Below are positions 28,533 to 35,417 of a DNA stretch of 64,000 nt, in pieces (position 1 is the first letter of the stretch; each line of letters begins with the position of its first letter). The position numbers and the translations under genes are program-made. Source of the stretch: Oscillatoria sp. FACHB-1407 (lineage in GTDB: Bacteria > Cyanobacteriota > Cyanobacteriia > Elainellales > Elainellaceae); assembly GCF_014697545.1 (NCBI RefSeq), contig NZ_JACJSA010000005.1, positions 62,001 to 126,000 on the forward strand, given 5' to 3'. The notes under the pieces are model-generated. The model had not been told where the DNA came from, did no database searches, and was given only the letters and a program-made list of their open reading frames with translations.

Positions 28533-28868
28533 CGGTTAAAACCACAGTTACAACGGTTTAAACAAAACCTACATCGGTTTGAACGCGAGTTACTTTCGTT
28601 TGAACGATTGCAGCTAATGCTTATATCTTTCTAGCTTTTGCTTAAACGAAACTTATACTTGTTTGAACGTGAGTAACTCTGATTCAAACGATTGCAGCTA
28701 ATGTTTATATCTTTCTAGCTTTTGCTTAAATGAAACTTATACTTGTTTGAACGAGAGTTACTTTCGTTTGAACGATTGCAGCTAATGCTTATATCTTTCT
28801 AGCTTTTGCTTAAACAACGCTTATACTTGCTCGAATCAGCGTTACTCCAGTTCAACCTTTTCTAACTT
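28533..28868 (+). repeat. 21-bp tandem array with an 84-bp higher-order unit
   Basis: Sixteen consecutive 21-bp units. The first unit begins CGGTTAAAACC and later ones TCGTTTGAACGATTGCAGC, ATGCTTATATC, TTGCTTAAACG and TTGTTTGAACG. From unit 4 on the types recur in a fixed four-unit order, giving an 84-bp superperiod: GATTGCAGCTAATG occurs at 28606, 28690 (ATGT variant) and 28774. Read forward, the first units encode Leu-rich heptads (RFERELL-like), but later units contain in-frame stops. It is therefore not a gene now. The 28297-28983 gap contains this array, R2 and the REP hairpin, and no gene. Confidence 0.9.
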
Positions 28869-28935
28869 GCTTTCAACGATCAACGAGTCGCGATTACCCC
28901 AAAGGGAGAACTGCTTCGCACCACCACTGCATTCC

Positions 28936-28968
28936 AGATCTGCGACTTCTTCGAGAAGTCGCAGATCT
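28936..28968. repeat. REP hairpin, distant copy
   Basis: A 33-bp perfect palindrome with arms AGATCTGCGACTTCT / AGAAGTCGCAGATCT around the loop TCG. The 15-bp arms are identical to those of the three copies around the REP-associated transposase gene at 41.4-42.2 kb. It stands between the 21-bp array and the stop codon of the small gene at 28984, where it could serve as a 3' hairpin for that minus-strand gene. Confidence 0.9.
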
Positions 28969-28983
28969 GAGCACCCAAAAGAA

Positions 28984-29184
28984 CTATCGCTCTAACACCG
29001 TCATAAACTTGCCTTGAGCAAACGGGGCAGGAACAATCGGCATAAAGTGAACTCGATCAGTCACAATCTGCTTCACATAAAACTCGTTAATCGTGTGTTT
29101 GACTTGCTCTCGTGTCCCAATAATCCAAATCTGCACTTTTTCGGCAGGCGGAACGGGCAGCAGTTCGTTGAACTCTGTAGTCAT
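28984..29184 (-). CDS. small conserved-looking hypothetical protein
   Basis: A 66-residue soluble protein with no signal or membrane segment. It contains a compact alpha/beta pattern: VQIWIIGTREQVKHTINEFY then VHFMPIVPAPFAQGKFMTVL. The clean ATG start with a purine-rich leader (GGAG within CTTCAGTGAGGC context) and good codon structure support a real gene. Cyanobacteria carry small proteins of this form, but no function is known to me. No neighbouring gene suggests a role. Confidence 0.55.
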   Translation of the reverse strand: MTTEFNELLPVPPAEKVQIWIIGTREQVKHTINEFYVKQIVTDRVHFMPIVPAPFAQGKFMTVLER

Positions 29185-29297
29185 AGTATTTGTGCCTCAC
29201 TGAAGGAGATAAACTGTAGCGAAGAAAAGCTTAAGGCGTGGTTTCCTAACCACTTGTTTTGCTTCAGTAAGGCGATTGATCCTAAAATCAACACAGC

Positions 29298-29440
29298 CTA
29301 ACCTCCTGCTGATTCCAGGAGTTAGGTTAGCTGGTTAGGAGTGCTGGTAACACTCTTAATCAGCGTTATCCTCACCTTAAGCTTGTCTACTGGAAATCCA
29401 GTGTTTCATAGAATAATCCAAAGGAAGATTGTAGACAAGC
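29298..29440. other. cluster of three hairpins in a gene-free stretch
   Basis: Three potential stems lie in a row. The first is CTCCTG/CAGGAG with flanking CTAA/TTAG at 29298-29330. The second is GAGTG/CACTC at 29339-29355. The third is a perfect 10-bp stem GCTTGTCTAC/GTAGACAAGC joining 29381-29390 to 29431-29440, enclosing a smaller hairpin (ACTGG AAAT CCAGT). A structured RNA or a protein-binding DNA site is possible. No known RNA family was recognised. The gap 29185-29910 has no gene; this is its left part. Confidence 0.4.
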
Positions 29441-29649
29441 GTACTAAGAGAATTGTTTCACCCGAATCACATCGCGCACCGAGCCGAGCAACTTTACAGG
29501 ACAAGGCAGGGCTTCACTGATCCTGGAAATCGATCTAATTGGACTATTCGTGGATTAGTATGCAAGCAAAGCGCATAGAACCAGAAGAAATGCAGAGCAC
29601 AATCAACGCATTCTCTGAGCAGAGGTTAATATGGAAGTATTCAAATCCG

Positions 29650-29818
29650 CCTAATATCCCAATTTTCCAAATGGCGTGAGGAAATCATTCTAATTGGGTT
29701 CTACAGGGGTATTAGGCTGCAAAAATCGATCTAATTCCCCGATTTTCCAAATAGAGTGATTTTTTCATACTATTTTCCCTAGGAGGGTATTAGGTTGAAA
29801 AAATCGATCTAATTAGAT
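29650..29818 (+). repeat. 78-bp tandem duplication with ATCGATCTAATT boxes
   Basis: Two direct repeats, about 78 bp apart, each contain ATTTTCCAAAT, then GGGTATTAGG, then AAAAATCGATCTAATT. The box CGATCTAATT ends the units at 29727 and 29805, and an isolated copy is at 29531. The last one extends into a 12-bp palindrome ATCTAATTAGAT (29807-29818). It lies about 90 bp downstream of the minus-strand ATP-grasp gene. No coding sense was seen. Confidence 0.6.
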
Positions 29819-29910
29819 TGTTATGCCGCTAAATATGCGTGGGGAGATCATCTTCACAGTTACTTGTTGAGATATAGCAATAAGTTGTTTGAGATGCATA
29901 GCAGCCACGA

Positions 29911-30735
29911 TTAACCATTTACTGCTTCATAGTCCTCCCAAGCTGCCTTTGCACCGGCCTCTACAATCAAGCTCAAATCACACCCATATTCTCCAGCACA
30001 GCTAAAAGAGCCAAGTTCTAGGATGAATAGCTCCCCTTCCGACTCACAAACATCTACTGTGTAGAGCAATTCTGGGTACCAATTAACCTGCTTCAACACT
30101 TCGGCAAGATAATTTACTAAATAACCACCTTTAACTCTCTCGTCAATTCTTTCTTCTCCAACCAGGTAGAGTGAGCCAGTGATAATCTCGTCCTTGTAGA
30201 CAAAAAAACGCCACTCTTTAGTAATCGATCGCTTTCCACTTACGAGTACTAACGTTGTTTCATCTCGCCTTAGCTCGCTTCCTAGAGTTTTCATGGTGTT
30301 TAGAACTTGAACGTTAAACACACCAGCACGGAACGACTTCATATTGCTGTCAGGTCTGATAAAAAGTTCACCATTAGACTGAAAATATTCAAAAATTTCT
30401 TCTCTTCTTCTGATTAGCTCACCTAATGGAAGAATGAAATATTTATTGTTCAGCAAATACTGACCAAAATAAGTATAGTAGGTCGTGCAGCGAAGATTCT
30501 TCTCATCCATATAGGCTCCAGGAATCCAAGAAGTTCGTAAGATATCTCGACCTAGATTTAGAGTTCCTCTAAAAAGCACACATTCATGATCTGGAAAATA
30601 TTTTTTTGCTGCCTCAGGTCGAAAGTCAAGATATCTAATCTCTTTGTAGAGGTATTTCTGCTTTTTTAATTCTTCCAGGAATTGCTCGTCAGCATCAAAG
30701 ACATGTCTTTCAATCAACCAATTTACTTTTTCCAT
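29911..30735 (-). CDS. ATP-grasp domain protein (DUF4343-like)
   Basis: A 274-residue protein. The C-terminal half has an ATP-grasp arrangement: ELFIRPDSNMKSFRAGVF (Lys/nucleotide region, about 124-141), EWRFFVYKDEIITGSLY, and the metal-binding end LYTVDVCESEGELFILELGSF with Asp and Glu ligands (about 228-248). The N-terminal part (about 1-110) is a predicted pre-ATP-grasp domain. It probably ligates a carboxylate to an amine; the substrates are unknown. Codon use is clearly AT-rich compared with flanking genes, suggesting transfer. It is oriented opposite to the neighbouring integron-type cassettes, with its start about 90 bp from the first attC-like site. Confidence 0.7.
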   Translation of the reverse strand: MEKVNWLIERHVFDADEQFLEELKKQKYLYKEIRYLDFRPEAAKKYFPDHECVLFRGTLNLGRDILRTSWIPGAYMDEKNLRCTTYYTYFGQYLLNNKYFILPLGELIRRREEIFEYFQSNGELFIRPDSNMKSFRAGVFNVQVLNTMKTLGSELRRDETTLVLVSGKRSITKEWRFFVYKDEIITGSLYLVGEERIDERVKGGYLVNYLAEVLKQVNWYPELLYTVDVCESEGELFILELGSFSCAGEYGCDLSLIVEAGAKAAWEDYEAVNG

Positions 30736-30824
30736 AGCGTTTGGTGTTACTACTATTATCTTTTACAAGATGTAATACTATTTGAATCTGTAGATGCAAG
30801 AGCTAGAGTCGTATCAATGCGGCG

Positions 30825-30910
30825 GTATAACCAGTCGGTTGCAGCGGACATCTAATTGTTCTTATCCCAAGTTCAAGGATACCTGCTGCCGCTGAACCGA
30901 GTCGTTAGCT
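30825..30910 (+). other. attC-like integron recombination site 1
   Basis: An 86-bp imperfect palindrome with attC architecture. R'' is GTATAAC (30825-30831), then a 5-bp spacer and L'' GGTTGCAGCGG (30837-30847). On the right are L' CCGCTGAACC (30889-30898), a 5-bp spacer and R' GTTAGCT (30904-30910). L'' pairs with L' except for one extra G, as in the extrahelical base of true attC sites. The right half closely fits the known attC consensus (GCSGCTKANCTC...GTTAGSC). The rest of 30736-31047 holds no recognised feature apart from leader sequence. Confidence 0.8.
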
Positions 30911-31047
30911 GACTTCGTTTTTGGGTTGGGGTGTGCATCCAGATTATCGGTGGGAATAGCTATGTTGAGCGATCGCAAACCAGTTACATATTTTGAGTAG
31001 AGATTTATATTTGATAAAGCAGCATTTCTGTAAATCGGTTCCTTTGC

Positions 31048-31908
31048 ATGAAGCGATCTGCCTCCTCAGTCCCAACATTTGATTCAATGTTCATACCCAC
31101 AGTTCAGGCTCTGCAAATTCTGGGTGGGTCTGGGACAACTGAGGAGATCTACGACAAAGTCGTACAACTTCTTGATTTGCCGGATAAGGTGCTTGAAATT
31201 CCACACGGCAGTACCTCCCAAAGTGAAGTGGAATACCGTCTTGCCTGGAGTCGTACCTATTTGAAGAAATACGGGCTTTTGCAAAATTCAGCACGCGGCG
31301 TATGGTCATTAGTATCGACCTCGCTCAATCTTAACAACTTAGATGCAAAGGAAATTGTCAAAGCTGTTCGGGATACAGAGAAGAGCAAAGCTGTTCCTTC
31401 AGATCCAACGACTGAAACGGTTGAATCTATCGAAACCCTGGAAGAGTTAGCATGGCATCAACAGTTGCACAAAATGTTGTTAACACTTGAGCCATCTGCG
31501 TTTGAGCGTTTAGCACAACGTCTACTGCGTGAGTCGGGGTTTATCCAAGTTCAAGTTATAGGAAAGTCTGGTGACGGTGGAATTGATGGGGTTGGCATTG
31601 CTCGGATTAACGGCTTCTTAAGCTTTCATGTTCTTTTTCAATGTAAACGTTATCAAGGTTCAGTCACGGCGGGTCAAATTCGAGATTTTCGTGGAGCCAT
31701 GCAAGGGCGCACTGACAAGGGATTATTTATCACGACTGGCACATTTACCAGAGATGCGATTAAAGAGGCAACACGAGATGGGGCACCACCGATTGATCTG
31801 ATCGATGGTGAGCAATTAGTTCAACGCTTGAAAGAGTTGGGGCTTGGTGTCAAGATCACGGTAATTGAGTCAGTGGAAGTCGATACAGATTGGTTCGCCA
31901 AAATTTAA
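31048..31908 (+). CDS. Mrr-like restriction endonuclease
   Basis: A 286-residue protein with an N-terminal winged-helix domain (Mrr_N-like; about 10-95, with SEVEYRLAWSRTYLKKYGLL) and a C-terminal PD-(D/E)xK nuclease (about 150-260). Catalytic residues are visible: FERLAQRLLRESGF (Glu helix), GKSGDGGIDGVG (Asp) and VLFQCKRYQGSV (Q-x-K). Mrr proteins cut foreign DNA, often modified DNA, without a partner methylase, and none is encoded nearby. It is the first gene of the cassette between attC-like sites 1 and 2, 15 bp upstream of a small gene that precedes an HNH nuclease. Confidence 0.85.
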   Translation: MKRSASSVPTFDSMFIPTVQALQILGGSGTTEEIYDKVVQLLDLPDKVLEIPHGSTSQSEVEYRLAWSRTYLKKYGLLQNSARGVWSLVSTSLNLNNLDAKEIVKAVRDTEKSKAVPSDPTTETVESIETLEELAWHQQLHKMLLTLEPSAFERLAQRLLRESGFIQVQVIGKSGDGGIDGVGIARINGFLSFHVLFQCKRYQGSVTAGQIRDFRGAMQGRTDKGLFITTGTFTRDAIKEATRDGAPPIDLIDGEQLVQRLKELGLGVKITVIESVEVDTDWFAKI

Positions 31909-31923
31909 TGTAATGGAGGCTAA

Positions 31924-32166
31924 ATGGTTACAACTCTTAATAAACCGTCTTCTTTAATCCATGAAATCCGACTCGAAAAAGTTGGTAACTGGAATTTATT
32001 CAAATTCAGTGAATCTCTTCAACTGCGAATGGAGAATCTTCTGGAACAGAAAAAAGCTGATCAGATCACGCCTGATGAAATTGCTGAACTCGATGCGATC
32101 GGAGAGTTAGATCGTATTTTTACCCATATCAACGCAATGCTTGCTGCTCAAAATGCCAATCAGTGA
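31924..32166 (+). CDS. small protein paired with an HNH nuclease
   Basis: An 80-residue soluble protein; the second half is helical and acidic (LQLRMENLLEQKKADQITPDEIAELDAIGELDRIF). The downstream HNH nuclease gene begins 26 bp before its stop codon, so the two are translationally linked. Small proteins of this kind next to an HNH gene are common in cyanobacterial genomes. An antitoxin-like or accessory role is an inference from the pairing only. It starts 15 bp after the Mrr gene with AATGGAGGC as ribosome binding site. Confidence 0.65.
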   Translation: MVTTLNKPSSLIHEIRLEKVGNWNLFKFSESLQLRMENLLEQKKADQITPDEIAELDAIGELDRIFTHINAMLAAQNANQ

Positions 32167-32605
32167 TGAACTCAAGCAAGCGATTCGAGAGCGTGCCAGA
32201 TATGTCTGCGAGTATTGTCATTCACCGGAGCGGCTAAGTGCCAATCGATTTACCGTTGATCATGTCATTCCAAAATCTTTGGGTGGTTCTGATGAACTTG
32301 ATAATCTTGCACTTGCCTGTCGTCGTTGCAATGAAAGGCGATACAACTTTGTAGCTAGCATTGATCCAGATACTCAGGAGATTGTTCCTATTTTTAATCC
32401 TCGCAAACAGAGGTGGGAAGAGCATTTTGTTTGGCTAAATCAAGGTGTTGTCATAGAAGGAACTACGCCCATTGGTCGCGCAACTTGCCTGCGTCTCGAT
32501 TTGAATGATACCCGTTATCCAGAGAACGATTCTATTCGAGAAACAAGACGGTTTTGGATACAAACCGGATTGCATCCTCCAGCAGATGATCCATGCCAAG
32601 CGTGA
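32141..32605 (+). CDS. HNH endonuclease
   Basis: A 154-residue nuclease. The zinc ribs are CEYCH (about 24-28) and CRRCN (about 61-65). The HNH core is FTVDHVIPKSLGGSDELDN, with the first His in DHV and the Asn in ELDNLALAC. The C-terminal 70 residues contain WEEHFVWLNQGVVIEGTTPIGRAT, typical of the cyanobacterial HNH subgroup. It overlaps the upstream 80-residue gene; a later ATG at 32153 would shorten it by four residues. It ends 18 bp before attC-like site 2, as expected for the last gene of a cassette. Confidence 0.88.
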   Translation: MLLKMPISDELKQAIRERARYVCEYCHSPERLSANRFTVDHVIPKSLGGSDELDNLALACRRCNERRYNFVASIDPDTQEIVPIFNPRKQRWEEHFVWLNQGVVIEGTTPIGRATCLRLDLNDTRYPENDSIRETRRFWIQTGLHPPADDPCQA

Positions 32606-32623
32606 GTAGTGTTGTTGCCAGCC

Positions 32624-32709
32624 AGCTAACATTGCGTTGGTGTGGACGGAACAGAGGTTATCGATGGGTGTTCAAGGTTATCTGCCGCCGCTGCACTTCA
32701 CCGTTATGC
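32624..32709 (+). other. attC-like integron recombination site 2
   Basis: R'' side AGCTAACATTGCGTTGG (from 32624) and R' side CCGCCGCTGCACTTCACC followed by GTTATGC (32703-32709), 86 bp in all. The right half matches the known attC consensus well. Pairing of the inner L arms is weaker than in site 1. It sits between the HNH stop codon (32605) and the start of the DUF6985-like gene (32722), the tight spacing seen in integron cassettes. Confidence 0.7.
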
Positions 32710-32721
32710 CTCAAAAATCTT

Positions 32722-33267
32722 ATGGACAACATTGAAGCTCCCATCTTTCCAGAATATGTTGACGACGAGTACCACCACGTTTCGACGATTACTCTACCGG
32801 CTTTCGCCGGGATGCAAACAACCAACGCCCCCTACGGTGCTGTTTCAAGTCCAGAGCCATCAATCGGTGAAACACATGCAATATCGAACAAGTCACTCGA
32901 TCCGAAGATCTTTCGTGCTGCCGTAAGTTGGGTCATCGAAAATGCTGCGGAGATTCGTAAACTTCTGTTTCCTGCACTAGTGGAACAATACTGGGAAATG
33001 CGAGATCTTGTGATCGAATGCTTAATGGATGAGAATCCGGATGATGTTGTTCCTGAGATCGAAGAGCCCGAAGAACTTGCGAAGCTTTGTAGGTTAGTCG
33101 CGGTTCATATTGGCGGACAGACGACCGACGGGCTACCTCGTTTTGGAATCGAGCTTGGTTGCAACTGGGAAGAGGAACACGGAGCAGGAGTGAGATTCGT
33201 TGGACTCCGCGTGGTAAAGGCGGGTGACGCTTCCGATGCGTTTACATTTCCGAAGTATGAGGCATAA
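32722..33267 (+). CDS. DUF6985-like cassette protein
   Basis: About 181 residues from the ATG at 32722, which lies 12 bp after the GTTATGC of attC-like site 2; the longer frame (from 32593) runs back through the attC site and is rejected. The C-terminus has the pattern FGIELGCNWEEEHGAGVRFV followed by VVKAGDAS, which I associate with DUF6985 proteins (W-D-EHGLGV then V-x-x-G-x-A-D). The middle is helical and acidic. The function is unknown. Its stop codon TAA lies inside the R'' box (GCATAAC) of attC-like site 3, a hallmark of a compact cassette. Confidence 0.75.
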   Translation: MDNIEAPIFPEYVDDEYHHVSTITLPAFAGMQTTNAPYGAVSSPEPSIGETHAISNKSLDPKIFRAAVSWVIENAAEIRKLLFPALVEQYWEMRDLVIECLMDENPDDVVPEIEEPEELAKLCRLVAVHIGGQTTDGLPRFGIELGCNWEEEHGAGVRFVGLRVVKAGDASDAFTFPKYEA

Positions 33268-33353
33268 CAACGCGTTGGACGCGGAGCCACCGATCGCGTC
33301 GTTCCTGTAGCCAATGTTGATTGGCAGCAGCCCGGTCAACACCTCCGTTATGC
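33262..33353 (+). other. attC-like integron recombination site 3
   Basis: R'' GCATAAC (33262-33268), spacer, GTTGGACGCGG; then CCCGGTCAAC, spacer and R' GTTATGC (33347-33353), 92 bp. R'' and R' are perfect reverse complements, and the inner arms pair with a one-base offset. The central part contains a further small stem (CCAAT/ATTGG). It has the same orientation as sites 1 and 2. No further site was seen downstream before the WYL regulator gene at 33489. Confidence 0.75.
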
Positions 33354-33488
33354 GGCTTGACTTATCAGTTTTGGCAGAGGTTCAAAAGATGTCTGTAGAT
33401 GTTTTAGATTAAGTTTAGTTTTACGCATGTAGGAGCACGATACAGGTGATGAGAAGGGCTATACTGCCCTGATGATCCAGATCCATTG

Positions 33489-34205
33489 ATGTCCAGCATG
33501 AGGAAAGCTGATCGTCTTTTTCAACTGGTGAATCTCATTAGATCCCACCAACCTATCACAGCAGAACAACTCGCTGAACGAGTTGGTGTTTCTGTGCGTA
33601 CAATTTACCGATATGTCGATGACCTCTCGGTGAGTGGTATTCCAATCTACGGTGAACCCGGTGTTGGTTATGCTCTGGATGAAGATTTTGAGTTACCGCC
33701 GCTCACGTTAACTCATGACGAGATTGCCGCTCTGATGTTGGGTGTTGAAATGCTGTCGCGATCGACTGGGACTGATTTGGAGGCAGCAGCAAAAACGCTT
33801 CTCAGCAAAATTGGAGCCGTATTGCCACCACGCAGCTTTGATCCAACTCGCGCATCTATTCGAGCATTAGGTAATCTTTTGAACGACCAAAGTTTGAGAT
33901 ATTGGAACGATCTTTATCGAGCCATTCAACAGCAACAAGCCGTCAGAATCGAGTACTTGAACCTGAATGAGCAATTGTCTCAGAGAGTCATCTTCCCGCT
34001 GGGACTATTCTGCTGGGGCAGTAAATGGACGGTTGGAACATGGTGTACGTTCAGAAAAACCTACAGAGATTTCCGCATTGATCGCATTCAAGATCTTGAT
34101 TTCGCTTCAGATTTTGAATTTCCAGGTCAAGAAATTAATCTTGATACATATACAGAATTTCAACTGGAGAGAATGAAATTATCTGGATTTCAGCCACTGA
34201 CATAA
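33489..34205 (+). CDS. YafY-type HTH/WYL transcriptional regulator
   Basis: A 238-residue regulator. The N-terminal HTH_11 domain (about 5-60) has SHQPITAEQLAERVGVSVRT and IYRYVDDLSVSGIPIYGEPG. A WYL-type ligand domain follows (about 135-230) with RIEYLNLNEQ and FPLGLFCWGSKWTVGTWCTF and RTYRDF-like FRKTYRDFRIDRI. The start is placed at the first ATG (33489), which follows a TTG. It lies 64 bp upstream of a Rieske oxygenase gene on the same strand, which is its most likely target. Confidence 0.88.
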   Translation: MSSMRKADRLFQLVNLIRSHQPITAEQLAERVGVSVRTIYRYVDDLSVSGIPIYGEPGVGYALDEDFELPPLTLTHDEIAALMLGVEMLSRSTGTDLEAAAKTLLSKIGAVLPPRSFDPTRASIRALGNLLNDQSLRYWNDLYRAIQQQQAVRIEYLNLNEQLSQRVIFPLGLFCWGSKWTVGTWCTFRKTYRDFRIDRIQDLDFASDFEFPGQEINLDTYTEFQLERMKLSGFQPLT

Positions 34206-34269
34206 TGCTGTCAGGAGCAGAGTTTTATGTTGGGCAACATCCAAGCATTTGTAATGGGTCAATTTTGTC

Positions 34270-35175
34270 ATGTTTGAGATGTTTCCTAACTTTTGGACTC
34301 CTGTGTTGCCTGTCGCTGAAATTGGAGCAGTTCCCATTGCAGTTGAATTAGCGGGCGAATCACTCGTTCTATTTCGGAGTTCGTCTGGTCAGTTTGCAGC
34401 GTTTCTAGATCGCTGTCCTCATCGCGGTGCGCCGCTTTCACAGGGACAAGTGACAGCCGACGGTTGTATTGAATGTCCCTATCATGGCTGGCAGTTCGCC
34501 TCAAATAGGGCTTGTGTTCAGGTTCCCTTCAACTCACTCAACCCAGATCACCTTTCCAAACTGTCGATCGTGAGCTTTCCAGTTAGAGTGATTGCAGGGA
34601 TACTCTGGATTTTTACAGGAACTGAAAATGTGCCGGAACTGAAGTTGCCGTCGAGTTTATTAGAGCCGGATGAACGCTATGTAATTCACCATGCGATTTG
34701 GAATGCTCATTGGACACACGCGATCGACATTTCGCTGGATTATCTGCATCTTCCTTTTGTTCATCGGAACTCATTTGGTGGCGAGCTAAATGACGCAGCA
34801 CACAAAAATGCGATCGCCCAAATCAGCATTACTCCAACGGCAGATGGGATGACGGTTACGAATCGGCTCAATACTTTATCTTCTGGAACGAAAATTGACT
34901 GGCATCAGCCGAATCATATCGTCCTAAATTTAGACGGAATGCCTCTTCTTCCCCATTTCTTTGCCATTCCGATTAATACTCAAAAAATGCGATTTATGCA
35001 GGTTCTTCTACCCAACCCTGGGATCGATCGGAGTAACTTTGATTTTGACGAGTTTTTTGCAGCATCTGACGACGATCGGGCTATGGTTGAATCACAAATC
35101 GGTGAAGTTCCTAACGTCAATGAAGGATATAACGTGCCTACTGATGAACCCTCACTGAGATTTCGTCGTTGGTAG
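34270..35175 (+). CDS. Rieske non-heme iron oxygenase
   Basis: A 301-residue oxygenase component. The N-terminal Rieske [2Fe-2S] site is CPHRGAPLSQG (about 42-52) with CPYHGWQF (about 62-69). The catalytic-domain iron helix is DISLDYLHLPFVHRNSFGG, with Asp, His and His ligands (about 156-165). The protein is about 100 residues shorter than bulky aromatic dioxygenase alpha subunits and resembles the PaO/choline-monooxygenase-like forms. The substrate is unknown; no ferredoxin or reductase is adjacent, so general cell electron carriers must serve. It is probably co-transcribed with the WYL regulator upstream. Confidence 0.88.
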   Translation: MFEMFPNFWTPVLPVAEIGAVPIAVELAGESLVLFRSSSGQFAAFLDRCPHRGAPLSQGQVTADGCIECPYHGWQFASNRACVQVPFNSLNPDHLSKLSIVSFPVRVIAGILWIFTGTENVPELKLPSSLLEPDERYVIHHAIWNAHWTHAIDISLDYLHLPFVHRNSFGGELNDAAHKNAIAQISITPTADGMTVTNRLNTLSSGTKIDWHQPNHIVLNLDGMPLLPHFFAIPINTQKMRFMQVLLPNPGIDRSNFDFDEFFAASDDDRAMVESQIGEVPNVNEGYNVPTDEPSLRFRRW

Positions 35176-35417
35176 TATCGCACAGTGAAAAATAAGAGAA
35201 CAGATATGGATTCGTCTGAATTTGTTTCCATAACCGCACCATACAAGCAATTGTAGTGCCGTGGGCTGAAGGAAGCTGTTGCTGCTGAATTCGGGGTTAC
35301 TAGCGACCGCTCAAGCGAGTCGTTCGTGCGATCGCCCCAAATCACCTGATTGAGTTATGGTTGCTATCAGGGTATAAAGTTCTGTGTGTAACTGGTGAGT
35401 TTTGGGGCAGTTTCCCT

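Follow-up and report, generated by a model that had tools for sequence, protein, structure and literature searches.

Integrons are usually pictured as one platform with one integrase. The attC site consists of R'', L'', L' and R' boxes with an extra base, and the R'' box of any true cassette complements the R' box of the site before it, both being derived from one circular cassette. Among transposons, non-autonomous derivatives such as miniature inverted-repeat transposable elements (MITEs) have an internally deleted enzyme gene, keep their ends and occur in several dispersed copies. Here, we describe an integron array of the cyanobacterium Oscillatoria sp. FACHB-1407, located in a 64,000-nucleotide stretch of DNA (the window) that covers bases 62001-126000 of contig 5 in an 8.13-Mb genome of 66 contigs. 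Sequence comparison indicates that the array is a genuine gene-capturing integron and that its own integrase gene, intI, is deleted. Taking the locus as a whole, we consider it likely to be a chromosomal integron platform, one of about eleven in this genome, with cassettes that would have been loaded in trans.

The locus resembles a sedentary chromosomal integron in its attI site, attC sites, cassette packing and box chaining, and in the full-length TIGR02249-type IntI encoded in the genome. A sedentary chromosomal integron is one long array, whereas we found about eleven places with short arrays, most of them without intI, and an extra RNA and small gene after intI. The likeness to MITE-type derivatives lies in the internal deletion of the enzyme gene and the dispersed copies, but attI and cassettes are kept here. 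Cyanobacteria have figured in integron surveys from 2008 onwards, if not earlier (PMC2426708), an attC model for cyanobacteria is available (PMC8352920) and a review of integrons names the phylum (PMC8618304). Clusters of attC sites lacking integrases (CALINs; PMC9024848, PMC12444791) can reportedly be mobilised in trans by functional IntI (PMC12444791), and our array shares with them the lack of a functional intI beside it; it differs in that attI and an intI stump are kept, and one deletion is found in four dispersed copies. Duplicated intI pseudogenes, arising from intragenomic duplication, have also been described (PMC2426708). These are similar in that decayed intI occurs alongside intact copies in one genome, and different in copy number, in the one internal deletion shared here and in the attI sites that are kept and differently loaded.

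The array begins earlier than the original prediction had placed it, with attI at 29820 and an extra cassette ahead of the first attC site. The features at its head are as follows.

28984-29184, minus strand: orf66, a 66-amino-acid gene downstream of the intI position; nine stop-free copies in the genome.
29185-29459, minus strand: structured RNA element (~270 nt), the orf66 leader, identified by fold and covariation; core at 29226-29384 by the covariance model R2.
29447-29526, minus strand: intI stump of ~26 codons, from the start ATG to AGG, the rest deleted; found by tblastn with full-length IntI.
29530-29826, plus strand: attI region, with the crossover G|TT after base 29820.

To the left of the first cassette, the window matches other integron loci through orf66 and its leader (28984-29459), the intI stump and attI up to ~29820. 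The attI region holds two ~90-bp imperfect repeats that are 73% alike, and a promoter scan of it gave no consensus sigma-70 site and nothing above chance. The window had been said to contain no intI and to hold a CALIN. There is indeed no full gene, and two or more attC sites occur without intI nearby, so the term CALIN holds in cis only: the first ~26 codons of intI survive on the minus strand beside a kept attI, and other contigs hold two full-length intI genes. The retention of attI and the stump points to an integron that lost its intI through internal deletion.

Three attC-like sites of one orientation had been predicted. They were found with the features described, all on the plus strand, and the covariance-model search suggested as a check, carried out with a model named R1, matched all three together with a decayed fourth.

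30825-30910, plus strand: attC1; R1 59.9 bits, E 3e-14; R'' fits the R' of attI at 6/7 positions.
32624-32709, plus strand: attC2; R1 32.2 bits, E 2e-6; R'' fits the R' of attC1 at 7/7; weak L boxes and a poor fold.
33262-33353, plus strand: attC3; R1 20.3 bits, E 0.004; R'' fits the R' of attC2 at 7/7.
35242-35328, plus strand: decayed fourth attC; R1 34.6 bits, E 4e-7; R boxes broken, R'' 2/7.

R1 was built from eight attC sites beside other platforms of the same genome, with no window site included; they were picked from the higher-scoring list of a loose attC pattern scan. In their alignment, the attC pairing is accompanied by 12 double-sided changes compared with 5.2 in shuffles (0/500). 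Over the 64-kb window, on both strands and at E<=10, R1 gave these four matches only. Examined for R and L boxes, the extra base in L'' and the variable loop, sites 1 and 3 have the attC structure (the spacers of attC3 are 5 and 6 bases), site 2 has it in part and the fourth is decayed. Genome-wide, attC3 (33262) is absent among the 36 R1 matches listed at E<=1, which include the other three window sites. Loose attC pattern scans were dropped as a detector, being too noisy at low thresholds. attC2 falls in a recurring sequence family, GTTGGTGNGGACGG, also seen at six loci (L035, L036, L040, L256, L257, L259), in which L-box pairing is poor; such sites are perhaps a different attC type.

The boxes of the array are chained: the fit is 6/7 from attI to attC1, 7/7 from attC1 to attC2, 7/7 from attC2 to attC3 and 2/7 from attC3 to the fourth site. 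Across 23 junctions of this genome and a related one-contig genome (G387; G-numbers denote other genomes and L-numbers loci), the R'/R'' match is exact in 14, against 2.6 expected by permutation, and none of 100,000 permutations reached 14. For this test, a hand-placed second site at C2:283k (contig:position shorthand for platform places in the Oscillatoria genome) was replaced by model coordinates, degenerate sites were kept, and the first contig 8 site was excluded, its preceding box being unknown. Outside the permutation, eight further attC places of the genome provide six junctions, with fits of 7/7 (one), 6/7 (two), 5/7 (one), 4/7 (one) and 2/7 (one). Based on the chaining in the window, cassettes 2 and 3 are bona fide and cassette 1 is very likely genuine, while the fourth site is decayed.

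Two full-length, stop-free IntI open reading frames (ORFs), predicted to encode integrases, are present at C19:123750-124691 and C2:583978-584919, and contig 1 holds a 3' fragment of intI. The two score 478 and 461 bits against TIGR02249 (cut-off 265), which none of 14 control genomes reached. Platform parts were found at eleven places, our own count from a joint reading of several comparisons: the window on contig 5, C5:159k, C2:283k, C2:364k, C2:584k, C4:182k, C15:47k, C15:145k, C19:124k, C8:95k and C1:170k. Of the 36 genome-wide R1 matches (24 at E<=1e-4), we count 22 next to these places. One intI junction, GAGAATTG or GAGATTTG followed by TTTCACCC, is common to the window, C2:283k, C15:47k and C4:182k, the last having an additional small deletion. 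Past the attI crossover, the cassettes of these four start with TTATGCC, TTAGCCT, TTAGACC and TTATACG, respectively. In the final bases before the crossover, the attI of the window is identical to those of C2:283k and C15:47k, and the sequences differ after TTA. Cassettes are thus joined at G|TT in these three platforms; the same is seen when C4:182k is set beside the intI-plus platform C2:584k, the first post-crossover bases being common before the two diverge. The fit between attI and the first attC, 6/7 in the window, is 7/7 in each of the other three.

A comparable family occurs in G387, where five of 14 orf66 copies share another intI deletion (~codons 45-227 lost) and one copy is accompanied by a near full-length intI match. 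Four of the five intI-deleted copies have one attI in common, and a different cassette begins after it in each. L204, L209, L210 and L211 share attI and differ soon after G|TT, as do L207 and L208. Since the deletion differs from that in Oscillatoria, platforms without intI but with separately loaded attI sites have been seen twice.

We propose that an IntI-family integrase inserted cassettes at the attI of the window, after 29820, and that the local intI was lost through an internal deletion joining the sequence just past its 3' end to ~codon 15-26. The full-length integrases encoded on other contigs would then load and exchange cassettes at platforms without intI, which would make these non-autonomous integrons. 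Such action in trans is the simplest mechanism and a likely one.

Several observations weigh against this proposal or against parts of it. The platforms of the window and C2:283k are mosaic, their RNA and attI being 96% alike and yet their orf66 genes differing by a synonymous divergence (dS) of 0.43. No clean empty site was found: when L238 and L239 were compared with two sister genomes, no locus contained both flanks, and the ktrBA loci of eight relatives share only ktrB and ktrA in order, without an empty site or an R1 match at E<=0.01. Nine of the 23 junctions are inexact (three 6/7, one 5/7, five 2-4/7), including the attI joint of C15:145k at 2/7. attC2 and the fourth site are structurally weak. 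Folding of the bottom strands, the other check suggested with the original prediction, gave modest support for sites 1 and 3 (z -2.3 and -1.7 relative to shuffles), whereas site 2 folds no better than shuffles (+1.0), and strand preference is inconsistent, the bottom strand being lower by 0.9 and 2.0 kcal/mol at sites 2 and 3 and higher by 1.2 at site 1.

The mosaic segments indicate that gene conversion between platforms probably happened, a process by which the deletion could have spread with nothing acting in trans. The array may then be a fossil integron: cassettes would have been loaded while each platform still had intI, and the deletion would have spread afterwards by gene conversion or homologous recombination. 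Besides the mosaic, this is consistent with the attI of C4:182k, which is nearer to that of the intI-plus C2:584k (92%) than to that of the window (85%). However, attI-cassette joints are exact in three of the four platforms without intI, where decay would be expected after a long frozen state. The attC sites of platforms without intI also score as high as those of intI-plus platforms (98.7 and 97.6 versus 91.8 and 82.5 bits, all of them R1 training sites), and the pattern is repeated with a different deletion in G387. We regard a fossil array as a real possibility that falls short of probable, and loading in trans as the better account of the platforms.

Further features of the platforms were noted. 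In G387, locus L208 holds the 5' part of one intI in tandem with a deleted intI, perhaps representing two fused platforms. A truncated platform (3' third of intI, RNA and orf66) lies directly after a tRNA-Ala(ggc) gene (L013 19673-19745 / L014). An array of ~84-bp tandem repeats at 28553-28850 of the window recurs at the platforms C2:584k and C1:170k and, without orf66, at two places on contig 6 and at C1:600k. A 35-bp palindrome (28935-28970) is dispersed in the genome and lies shortly past the orf66 stop in several platforms.

The RNA and orf66 would form a conserved companion module after intI. A search with the window protein yields nine orf66 copies, each of them open (a profile search counts ten matches), and their pooled ratio of nonsynonymous to synonymous differences (pN/pS) is 0.05, with pS 0.30. 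The 275-bp leader is 85-97% identical among the nine copies and more conserved than the synonymous sites of orf66. Its folding energy gives z -5.8 on the strand of orf66 and -5.3 on the opposite strand, values so similar that energy does not settle the RNA strand. In an alignment of 16 leaders drawn from six genomes, the 37 pairs are standard in 94.9% of cases and double-sided changes number 43 versus 15 in shuffles (0/500), a result flattered by the derivation of the structure from this very alignment; one of five covariation measures, further pair types (26 versus 26.5), was not above shuffles. An Rfam scan of the window gave no match, and the window RNA had none at gathering score, the five matches at E<=5 all having E>=0.5 and lying far below gathering. 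The orf66 protein has no relative in Pfam, NCBIfam or the PDB (best E in PHROGs 0.09, for one relative), and no orf66 relative was detected in the viral contigs searched. Predicted folds of two orf66-type proteins have moderate confidence (mean predicted local distance difference test scores of 74 and 80), and Foldseek found no convincing match to them (best E 0.1 and 0.15).

Integrons are common among the relatives of this organism. Of 386 sampled cyanobacteria, 23, including this genome, have an integron integrase over cut-off, and R1 matches at E<=1e-4 were found in 36/36 genomes of its family grouping, at least one to at least 121 in each (lower bounds, 123 candidates being scored per genome). 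Together with the published surveys, these counts show that the earlier description of integron cassettes as rarely described in cyanobacteria is an understatement. At the intI loci, R1 gave 92 matches, 90 of them on the minus strand and upstream of intI as compared by eye, and two on the plus strand. One family genome, G426, gave no orf66 match; its attC matches at E<=1e-4 number at least 121 and are spread across many contigs. Close IntI relatives also occur in metagenome-assembled genomes (MAGs) labelled Gracilibacteria, Thermoflexia, Chloroflexi and Poribacteria (L079, L110, L139, L143 and others), which may reflect real spread or misbinning.

We searched the window, 80 named intI loci and 10 others with the leader-core model R2, built from 12 sequences. 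R2 scores 145.9 bits on the window sequence, itself in the training set. Matches lie 102-501 nt after intI on the same strand at L081 (Elainella; in training) and at L133, L084, L091 and L109 (Synechococcales MAG, Nodosilinea; not in training). A search of three loci matched L080 (25.7 bits, E 9e-5) and neither L128 nor L136. R2 also matches a solo RNA and orf66 copy in G011 (L179 5235-5390), ~280 kb from the intI of that genome, with an in-frame TGA at a conserved Trp codon. With the single window protein as query, orf66 matches occur in 2/292 sampled cyanobacteria, and with the profile in 21/36 family genomes.

This distribution bears on whether the RNA and orf66 are instead an independent small mobile element inserted beside intI, with a copy number unrelated to integrons. 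Up to 62 orf66 copies occur in one genome (G422, Elainella saxicola E1, NCBI family Oculatellaceae), and 30 of 40 copies sampled from five family genomes have no intI or attC within ~3 kb on each side; the other ten have one on the intI side and none on the opposite side. The module was accordingly dropped as an integron-only feature, most sampled copies in other genomes being solo. In many copy pairs, homology runs from near the RNA 5' end to the orf66 stop or close to it. For most G387 pairs, and at C15:47k, C4:182k and C2:364k, its end coincides with the stop or lies no more than a few bases away; homology continues for ~430 bp in the window, C2:584k and C1:170k and for ~70-230 bp in G402, G400 and some Elainella pairs; since this end varies, we claim no defined element end.

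Against an independent element, eight of the 80 named intI loci (L080, L081, L084, L091, L109, L128, L133, L136) have a small gene fitting the orf66 pattern 271-695 nt past intI and in its orientation; 74 of the 80 hold at least 600 nt beyond intI. The pattern, written after some of these proteins had been seen, gave 18 matches in 2.10 Mb of strand sequence, and all seven with a second motif are right after intI. R2 matches fall between intI and the small gene in six of the eight loci, L128 and L136 being the exceptions. Outside Elainella, the small ORFs are only 18-28% identical to orf66, so that their homology rests on place, pattern and RNA. We judge an independent element somewhat unlikely and prefer to regard the RNA and orf66 as a companion of intI, apparently undescribed, that recurs beside integrases in other cyanobacteria. 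Its function may, as a guess, be the control of intI or of recombination, or the upkeep of platforms.

Two further explanations concern the array itself. A true CALIN, formed by off-target cassette insertion at a non-att chromosomal site, would agree with the lack of a full intI in the window and with other attC clusters (e.g. on contigs 11 and 20) where the stretches of 7-10 kb that were read contain no remnant of a platform, but it is very improbable here, as attI, the intI stump, RNA and orf66 head the array in the order of intI-plus platforms. That the sites are chance hairpins resembling attC, as the unremarkable fold of site 2 and the very noisy loose scan might suggest, is hardly credible in view of the R1 matches, the common orientation, the chained boxes and the way the sites cluster next to platforms and intI, and for the site set it was ruled out by the permutation test (0/100,000).

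The integron of the window carries the following cassettes.

29821-30904, plus strand: cassette 1; R2K-type ATP-grasp gene at 29911-30735 on the minus strand.
30905-32703, plus strand: cassette 2; Mrr-like gene 31048-31908, an 80-amino-acid ORF (ORF80) 31924-32166, HNH gene 32141-32605.
32704-33347, plus strand: cassette 3; DUF6985 gene 32722-33267.
33348-35322, plus strand: likely cassette 4, between attC3 and the decayed fourth site; WYL regulator 33486-34205, Rieske protein 34270-35175.

The gene packing agrees with what had been claimed: the HNH ORF ends at 32605, 18 bp ahead of attC2, the ATG of the DUF6985 gene (32722) is 12 bp past attC2, and its stop TAA sits in the R'' box of attC3. 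Mrr and HNH defence cargo had been assigned to the first cassette. The cargo is of defence type (Pfam Mrr_cat 2e-30 and HNH 1e-16; PADLOC type IV restriction model 1e-25 for the Mrr protein), but the cassette is the second. ORF80, between the two genes, matched no family. In sister platforms, the first cassette encodes a DNA methylase at C2:283k and a NACHT protein at C4:182k. By these annotations, defence-type cargo recurs across platforms and is not their sole theme.

Among the matches listed in our literature search, whose scope left out most subscription papers, no report surfaced that links an RNA or a small protein to intI or describes families of cyanobacterial platforms without intI; given this limited coverage, the result is weak evidence of novelty. 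Cyanobacterial integrons were already known, and it is the family of platforms without intI and the RNA-small-protein module that look new, the association of intI with the latter being the most novel lead of our analysis.

Tentatively, and with somewhat less than even confidence, we suggest that integrons in several cyanobacterial lineages have a third part, a structured RNA and a small beta-alpha-beta protein after intI. In one family, the platform would have become dispersed and multi-copy, its intI-deleted members continuing to take up cassettes, defence cargo among them, by means of an integrase provided in trans, and the RNA-protein pair would be the part that selection keeps after the loss of intI. 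Many short platforms, most without intI and several with a loaded attI, would uncouple the capture site from the enzyme and would multiply the places for cassette storage and expression. In addition, if intI has a conserved RNA and small protein at its side, they would offer a new lead on integrase control or platform upkeep.

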